Assembly: GCA_903835265.1 (NCBI GenBank)
Contig: CAILMG010000158.1
Span: forward strand, 1-36,661
Length of the DNA: 36,661 bases
Direction: 5' to 3'
DNA from: an uncultured Methylococcus sp.
Lineage (GTDB): Bacteria > Pseudomonadota > Gammaproteobacteria > Methylococcales > Methylococcaceae
The notes beneath the pieces were generated by a model that made no database searches, had not been told where the DNA came from, and worked only from the letters and a program-made list of their open reading frames with translations. Below are positions 5,371-26,659 of this stretch, one piece after another. Every line of letters starts with the position of its first letter. Position 1 is the first letter of the stretch. A program made the translations under genes and the position numbers.

Positions 5371-6312
5371 ATGACTGTCCACCAGCGGCGCTATGACGTC
5401 ATCACTTTAGGCGAGGGCTTGGTCGAGTTTAACCAAACCTCAGCCAGCGCTGCCACCTACCTCCAGGGCTTCGGTGGAGACACCTCGAATGTGGCGATCG
5501 CTGCCGCTCGGCAAGGGGCCCGCGTGGGCTATCTGTCTCGCCTGGGCGCCGATGATTTTGGTGCGATGCTCAAACAACTGTGGGATCGAGAAGGTATCGA
5601 TACGACCTATGTCAGCATCGATAAAGAAGCCCCCACGGGTCTCTACTTTATTACGCATGGTCCGAGTGGCCATCGGTTCAGCTACCGACGACAGGGCAGT
5701 GCGGCCAGCTTGATGAACGCCGAGATTCTCGCGGGAGACATGATCCAAAGCGCCTGGATGCTCCATCTATCGGGCATCAGTCAAGCCATTAGTTCTTCCG
5801 CTGAAACCGTCGTTCGGCAGGCGGTGGATCTCGCGAAGAAAGCGGGCACCCAGATCTCTTATGACACCAATTACCGCCCTCGCCTCTGGTCCCCTGACCA
5901 TGCCCTCAAGGCCCTTCTTGAGATCCTCCCGTTGACGGACCTTTTTCTACCGAGCATGGAAGACCTCCGCCTGCTGACGGGGCTTAAGGACCCTTTTGCT
6001 GTGCTGGAATGGTCCCGTCAGCACGGTGCCCGAAGGACCATCCTGAAACGGGGCCCTGAAGGTGTCTTGGTCGATGACCAGGGAGACATCCAGATCCTTT
6101 CTGGACACGCCGTGAATACCATTGACGCCAGTGGTGCCGGCGACTGCTTTGTCGGGTGCCTACTAGCCCGCCTCAGTCTCGGCGACACCCTGTTAGATGC
6201 GGCCGCCTATGGCAATGCAGCGGCCGCTCTATCAACCGAGGGATTCGGCGCTGTGGCACCGATTCCTTCGAGCCCCGAGGTCCGAGTAAAGCTCCTTTTG
6301 CACCATGACTAA
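5371..6312 (+). CDS. kdgK: 2-keto-3-deoxygluconate kinase (PfkB family)
   Basis: The product is a 313-residue PfkB/ribokinase-family sugar kinase. The GFGGDTSNVAIAAARQG block, the YRRQGSAAS substrate loop, and DTNYRPRLW are typical of KDG kinases rather than fructokinases or ribokinases. IDASGAGDCF carries the catalytic base D258 and the anion hole. It would phosphorylate 2-keto-3-deoxygluconate to KDPG, the substrate of Eda encoded nearby, so sugars entering as KDG (for example from uronate or a semi-phosphorylative route) could join the same pathway. No good ribosome site precedes the ATG. The substrate call rests on motifs and context; a fructokinase is the main alternative. Confidence 0.8.
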   Translation: MTVHQRRYDVITLGEGLVEFNQTSASAATYLQGFGGDTSNVAIAAARQGARVGYLSRLGADDFGAMLKQLWDREGIDTTYVSIDKEAPTGLYFITHGPSGHRFSYRRQGSAASLMNAEILAGDMIQSAWMLHLSGISQAISSSAETVVRQAVDLAKKAGTQISYDTNYRPRLWSPDHALKALLEILPLTDLFLPSMEDLRLLTGLKDPFAVLEWSRQHGARRTILKRGPEGVLVDDQGDIQILSGHAVNTIDASGAGDCFVGCLLARLSLGDTLLDAAAYGNAAAALSTEGFGAVAPIPSSPEVRVKLLLHHD

Positions 6313-15801: not shown

Positions 15802-16460
15802 TTGACATCCGATTGAAAAAGGTCCCGGAACGAACGAGCGTTCTGTTCCGGGTCACCCTCCCCAAAAATTCCCTCAATCACCGCCAGAAGATCTGCGCCC
15901 TGCTGCAAGAGGGTCTCACCGTTTTTTAACGTAATACCCCCGATAGCGACCACGGGCACCCGAATCATTGACCGGGCCCTTAGAAGCGTCTCCATGGATG
16001 CGGTCGGGGCACCCGGCTTGGTCCTAGAAGGAAAAAATCGACCAAAGGCCACATAGTCGACCCCCTGCTCCACGGCGTCTTTCGCCCGGTCGATGTCGTC
16101 ATAACAAGAAACACCAATCAGCGCTTTTGGTCCTAATTGTGCGCGAGCGACCGAATAGGCCTGATCCATCGATCCAAGATGAACGCCATCCGCTCCAACC
16201 GATTGGGCTAAGTCGATATCATCGTTGATAATCAATGGGATGCCGGCGCTCCGGCATAAAGCCAATAGTGCAGTAGCCTCTGAGTAGGGATCTAATGGGC
16301 GTTTCGCCCGATATTGAATAACGGCCGCACCGCCTCGGACCGCTTTGGCCACTTCTTCCACTAAAGAGGCCCGATCACCCTCAAGATCACGGGTAATGGC
16401 ATAGAGACCTTGTGCTGGAAATTTTGGAGCTTGATTCATCTTCATCATTCTCATTCTCAT
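15798..16460 (-). CDS. thiE: Thiamine-phosphate synthase
   Basis: The product is up to 220 residues and couples HMP-pyrophosphate with thiazole phosphate to give thiamine monophosphate. Family blocks are present: [18 protein letters not shown] (substrate phosphate), [34 protein letters not shown] and [13 protein letters not shown]. The start is unclear. The N-terminus [10 protein letters not shown] holds five in-frame ATGs generated by a short ATGAGA repeat, none with a good ribosome site, so the true start could be any from 16460 to 16439. The gene is divergent from argG across 86 bases, and I see no TPP riboswitch there. It converges on nrdB with a 4-base overlap of the stop codons. Confidence 0.9.
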
Positions 16461-20376: not shown

Positions 20377-20418
20377 TAAAAAATCAACGCCCGTTCAAAG
20401 AAATAAGAATGGGCGCTG
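20377..20418 (-). terminator. Rho-independent terminator after the amber-interrupted gene
   Basis: On the minus strand CAGCGCCC pairs with GGGCGTTG (8 pairs, one G-U) across an 18-base loop and is followed by ATTTTTTACC. It begins 9 bases after the stop of the broken secreted-protein gene. The loop is long, so strength is uncertain. Confidence 0.5.
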
Positions 20419-20427
20419 GTAATAGAG

Positions 20428-20952
20428 TCATATCATCCGATTATTGTCCCACACGGACAAACACCAAGGCACTATGGCTCGGCCGTAATCCACCTGTTGT
20501 GGATCGTAAACTTCCATGGTATCGGAGATGGTCAGCGTCTTCTTATCCTTTGACTGATTGAAAACATAACTCCGGGGGTCATCAGGCAGTAGGGCATCGA
20601 CAAAATTGATGTAGTTACCGACATTTAGGATTTGGTGAGAATACCAGTAACCATCAGGGCTTTTTGTTGAGCCAAGCACCCCGACATTATGGTGATAGAC
20701 GCCCTTGCCTTTTTTGAAGCTCATGGTGAGTATCTCGTTGTCCACACATTTTGAAAACTAAACGACGATCGCCGGGGTTCCTGGAGGCAAAGGAAACTGC
20801 CCGGGACAAGTAATGGTCTTCCCATTGCTCTCAATGTGAGTCAACTTCCATTGACCCACTAAGGCCTTCGGCGTTTCAGCCATCAACGACAATGGAGCCA
20901 TCAGTGAGAGGGCAAACATAAACTTTTTAGCATCTTTGTGTCCTTGCCTCAT
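20428..20952 (-). pseudogene. Small secreted (lipocalin-like?) protein interrupted by an in-frame TAG
   Basis: Two frames, 20758-20952 (64 residues) and 20428-20745, lie in exactly the same reading frame, separated only by a TAG at 20758-20760 and five sense codons (FSKCV). Read through, they give one protein of about 174 residues. The N-terminus is a signal peptide with a hydrophobic core around FMFALSLMAPLSLMA and likely cleavage before ETPK. The mature part begins ALVGQWKLTHIESNGKTI, which resembles the first strand of small lipocalin-like proteins. A terminator follows. A recent nonsense mutation or a sequencing error is most likely; amber readthrough is possible. I do not recognise the specific family. 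Confidence 0.6.
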
Positions 20953-26547: not shown

Positions 26548-26659
26548 ACCCTACCCTCGTTCATCCAAGAGCATTACCGGTGATTGAACTTGGTCCATAA
26601 TGGCATGACATAGAGCCACTCAATGACGATTATTGCGCGTCCATCATCGACCTCAGACC

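Follow-up and report, generated by a model that had tools for sequence, protein, structure and literature searches.

In ordinary bacterial pseudogenes the damage, a stop codon and small deletions, is limited to a single dispensable gene with intact orthologues in sister genomes; according to one published account, assembly errors underlie many of the pseudogenes claimed in bacteria (PMC11017572). The locus described here resembles the ordinary case in all of these features and differs from it in nothing of note, its lesions being young and accompanied by no detectable relaxation of selection. It lies in a contig of an uncultured Methylococcus sp. (CAILMG010000158.1; C158 among the 310 contigs of a 2.45-Mb draft genome with 94% completeness), the whole 36,661-nucleotide stretch of which was analysed and is termed the window below. 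The minus-strand region 20428..20952 is, with a probability of roughly 0.86, a recently inactivated gene, an ordinary pseudogene of a lipocalin-like and probably secreted protein that has a native length of 164 amino acids in the sister genomes.

Structure of the interrupted frame

Read on the minus strand from 20952 to 20428, the region constitutes a single frame that only one stop interrupts, the TAG at 20758-20760. Counting from the ATG at 20952, which is the window's own, there are 64 codons (20761..20952, minus strand) before this TAG, and the upstream half thus delimited holds the first of two conserved cysteines and an N-terminal segment with a hydrophobic stretch that resembles a signal peptide by eye. 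Four sense codons separate the TAG from a GTG-opened downstream ORF that ends at 20428 (20428..20745, minus strand; 105 amino acids), the last part of which is out of the native frame. An intrinsic-terminator-like hairpin followed by a T run (20380..20420, minus strand) lies beyond this ORF, with a folding energy of -16.8 kcal/mol and a z-score of -5.9 (0 of 200 shuffles as good). It was missed by a consensus scan because the scan allows loops of up to 8 nt and the loop here has 10. The same hairpin also forms in both sister genomes, significantly so in G005 (z -4.9) and not significantly in G003 (z -1.1). No tRNA and no Rfam family at its gathering score was found in the window. The earlier note, made from the letters of the window alone, had described a secreted-protein gene split by a single amber codon, with a signal peptide in its upstream half and a terminator after its downstream half. 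The shared frame, the single TAG, the signal-peptide-like stretch and the terminator all hold, while the five sense codons it placed between the halves are four before the downstream GTG.

Orthologues, synteny and distribution

When the read-through protein, with the TAG rendered as X, is compared with a set of relatives, matches at E 0.001 occur in 4 of 61 genomes, namely the window's own and G003, G004 and G005. These represent four of the six genomes of the genus, and none of the 55 genomes outside the genus matches at the same threshold. A search of a class sample with a three-row profile similarly returned, among the matches listed, none of 273 genomes besides the window's own at E 0.001. 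The G003 protein matches none of the plasmid records, and a mobile or plasmid-borne origin was rejected on this ground. The gene would encode a small secreted protein with a patchy distribution, which these searches detected in four of the six genomes of the genus and in no other genome, and which is decaying in two of the four.

Intact orthologues occupy the same place in G003 (public record RFVA01000001.1, Gammaproteobacteria MAG WB5_2B_046) and G005, where they are flanked by the same DsbD_2-like and NUDIX genes. They align with 84% identity over residues 6-152, across the position of the TAG and with no stop inside, and code for a protein of 164 residues if read from the ATG common to both. 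The joined frame is thus, as judged from these alignments, one gene and not two. The search for full-length homologues of the joined protein that the earlier note had advised bears this out, as the proteins of G003 and G005 and a remoter relative in G004 (contig C10) span both halves. The interval between the DsbD_2-like and NUDIX genes is about 180 bp in G001 and G004, as against 926 bp in the window, and the gene is therefore absent at that place in these two genomes. G002 showed no DsbD_2-like neighbour nearby. In G003, the match to a second DsbD_2-like copy (G003:C217:1514-2235, minus strand, L019) is split into overlapping pieces, one covering residues 1-96 and the other 89-241, a pattern suggestive of a frameshift in that copy.

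Lesions in the window copy

Alignment with both sisters reveals three differences in the window copy. At native codon 59, where the sisters encode glutamine, it has the TAG at 20758..20760 (minus strand); an A run just within the native start has lost 1 nt (20928..20929, minus strand); and a 1-nt deletion at 20500..20501 (minus strand) puts the final 19 native codons into a different frame. At all three sites G003 and G005 agree against the window copy, so the differences are derived in the window lineage. From the start shared with the sisters, the window frame ends after 10 codons, and it is open past the start-side deletion only by way of another ATG upstream, of the use of which no sign was seen. 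A further ATG a few codons inside is also in frame with the window reading. Since in-frame ATGs thus lie both upstream (20952) and downstream, the start-side deletion does not have to inactivate the gene on its own. The second deletion lies 19 codons short of the native end and yields a different C-terminus, and by eye the C-terminal end of the G004 C10 relative is closer to the native end of the sisters than to that of the window.

As the in-frame upstream ATG and the run-on C-terminus mask the two deletions, these are invisible in the window alone, where the earlier note had seen no damage other than the TAG. That statement is overturned by the alignment with the sisters, and of the options in the note, a very recent nonsense mutation fits in so far as the break looks recent from the substitutions on the window branch, while two frameshifts stand alongside the single nonsense change. 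A seemingly solitary stop can hide further damage that is visible only against sister genomes.

Selection and age of the break

Substitutions were polarised with G005 as the outgroup, and 11 ambiguous differences were dropped. The window branch carries 14 synonymous, seven nonsynonymous and one nonsense change, and the G003 branch 14 synonymous and 12 nonsynonymous changes. These ratios (8:14 versus 12:14) give no sign of relaxed selection (Fisher P 0.57), and neutrality would very rarely leave the window branch with so few nonsynonymous changes (P 5e-5). The dN/dS of 0.165 between the window and G003 is likewise close to that between the intact sisters (0.193). The neighbouring genes measured show values of 0.013-0.167, below the 0.165-0.193 of this gene save for the NUDIX gene (0.148, 0.167), which is similar. 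The purifying-like substitutions on the window branch thus imply that selection acted for most of the branch and that the break came late. The missing relaxation is expected for a very recent inactivation and gives no positive support to the pseudogene. Based on an intergenic rate of 8.4 substitutions per indel and an assumed nonsense share of 0.04, the chance of at least two further lesions is about 0.19 if five neutral substitutions have followed the first lesion and about 0.04 if two have. To find three lesions beside hardly any neutral substitutions is therefore slightly to somewhat unexpected, and this is the main remaining support for an error in the assembled sequence.

Integrity of the neighbouring genes

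From the stretch of G003 that matches the window, 33 non-overlapping ORFs of at least 100 amino acids were taken, 31 of which match the window. Twenty-nine of these are open in one stretch, the others being the pseudogene at 20428-20952 and moaA. The G003 moaA ORF reads 24 codons further upstream than that of the window (26551-26619, minus strand), where the window has a stop. This 5' extension is probably over-called and not coding, and moaA was rejected as a second broken gene, its stop (~26551) preceding the point at which the conserved part likely starts.

Among 28 window ORFs hand-picked from 56 listed, indels are located near the ORF ends, are in frame or form pairs 3-4 bases apart, and those at the ends are judged to be over-called starts or shifted stops. 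Eleven indels were counted in 33,858 aligned genic bases (ends hand-trimmed and the gene at 20428-20952 included) and 50 in 2,733 intergenic bases. For two frameshifts placed randomly among the genic bases, the probability of both lying in this gene is about 2e-4. Pairs of a 1-nt insertion and a 1-nt deletion relative to G003 occur inside genes at 5663/5667 and 18968/18971, the frame being restored in each case, and may be either real compensated shifts or alignment artefacts. An insertion of 13 nt relative to G003, comprising a repeated CATTCT-like unit, is found at 16440-16455, where it adjoins the start of a thiamine monophosphate synthase-like gene.

Alternative explanations

An error in the assembled sequence, with a consensus that misreads at least one of the three sites of a gene still intact in the organism, is the likeliest of the alternatives and is nevertheless considered unlikely. 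The draft genome is fragmented into 310 contigs, one of the deletions sits in an A run, the substitutions are purifying-like up to the tip of the window branch and a clustered assembly error would look the same as a recent inactivation. Against these points, no stop interrupts 29 of the 31 matching sister ORFs in the window, which makes general sequencing error, one of the options raised in the earlier note, less likely. The other 27-odd ORFs also show no uncompensated frameshift in their core, so that three errors within a gene of 0.5 kb would need local clustering. That the two ORFs are now separate short genes is the least credible of the alternatives. Both halves are listed as ORFs and the downstream one has a GTG start, but its C-terminal tail is out of the native frame, homologues that cover both halves exist in the two sisters and on contig C10 of G004, and no homologue consisting of one half only, which the earlier note had named as the mark of two genes, was found among the matches of both homologue searches.

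Programmed or suppressed amber readthrough yielding a functional full-length protein, which the earlier note had also offered, is very improbable. The frame past the TAG stays open apart from the C-terminal shift, and 11 synonymous versus five nonsynonymous substitutions are located after the TAG. The sisters G003 and G005, however, have a sense codon for glutamine at this position, so readthrough is not a conserved trait, and given the two 1-nt deletions it would not by itself give the native protein, as the shift near the C-terminus would leave other residues in place of the final 19 native ones. The TAG is moreover an ordinary stop in this organism, since RF1 is encoded in the genome and TAG ends four of the 28 hand-picked window ORFs. 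In the search for an amber suppressor tRNA that the earlier note had advised, none of the 24 confirmed tRNAs among 25 genome matches (one at a contig end, and the set incomplete, in this 94% complete assembly of 310 contigs) has a CUA anticodon. Only two matches to PylS were obtained, both below the cut-off and like those in 12 control genomes, and on this incomplete set a suppressor tRNA or pyrrolysine was judged improbable. A variant in which the TAG is partly read through and the window-specific N- and C-termini form a remodelled, still exported and functional lipocalin-like protein would, if true, explain the purifying substitutions after three apparent lesions, and is more doubtful still.

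The predicted intact protein and its probable loss

On the preferred reading as a recent pseudogene, the protein of the intact ancestor would have had some 164 residues, a start resembling a signal peptide and a remote likeness to the small beta-barrel family Lipocalin_4 (PF13648), and was probably exported. The window lineage would then have gained a nonsense codon in the first half of the gene and lost single bases at two sites, next to the start and ahead of the last predicted strand. At most, a short truncated fragment would now be translated and exported, the remainder being lost. The gene appears dispensable, as two other genomes of the genus, G001 and G004, have no copy at this position. 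Within this reading, the loss of function, the export, the binding of a ligand and the order of the lesions are predictions.

The size, the signal-like start and a partial strand pattern fit Lipocalin_4, and the G004 C10 relative, with 25.9 bits, passes the curated cut-off of 22.4 bits. The window copy (X at the TAG; 14.6 bits, E 0.062) and the G003 protein (15.7 bits), by contrast, score below this cut-off, and the G005 protein gave no Lipocalin_4 match in the profile search. A single-sequence model of the G003 protein consists mostly of strands at poor confidence (mean pLDDT 41), and the only match among solved structures (E 0.36) is taken as chance. There is consequently modest support for the intact protein as an exported lipocalin-like ligand binder, and by analogy with the family it perhaps binds a small hydrophobic ligand.

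Two remoter copies of the family are encoded elsewhere in G004. That on contig C10 is intact and 34% identical to the G003 protein, while that on contig C85 has decayed as well, with internal stops and large deletions relative to the C10 copy (L013, contig positions 5876-6130; L006, 1446-1851).
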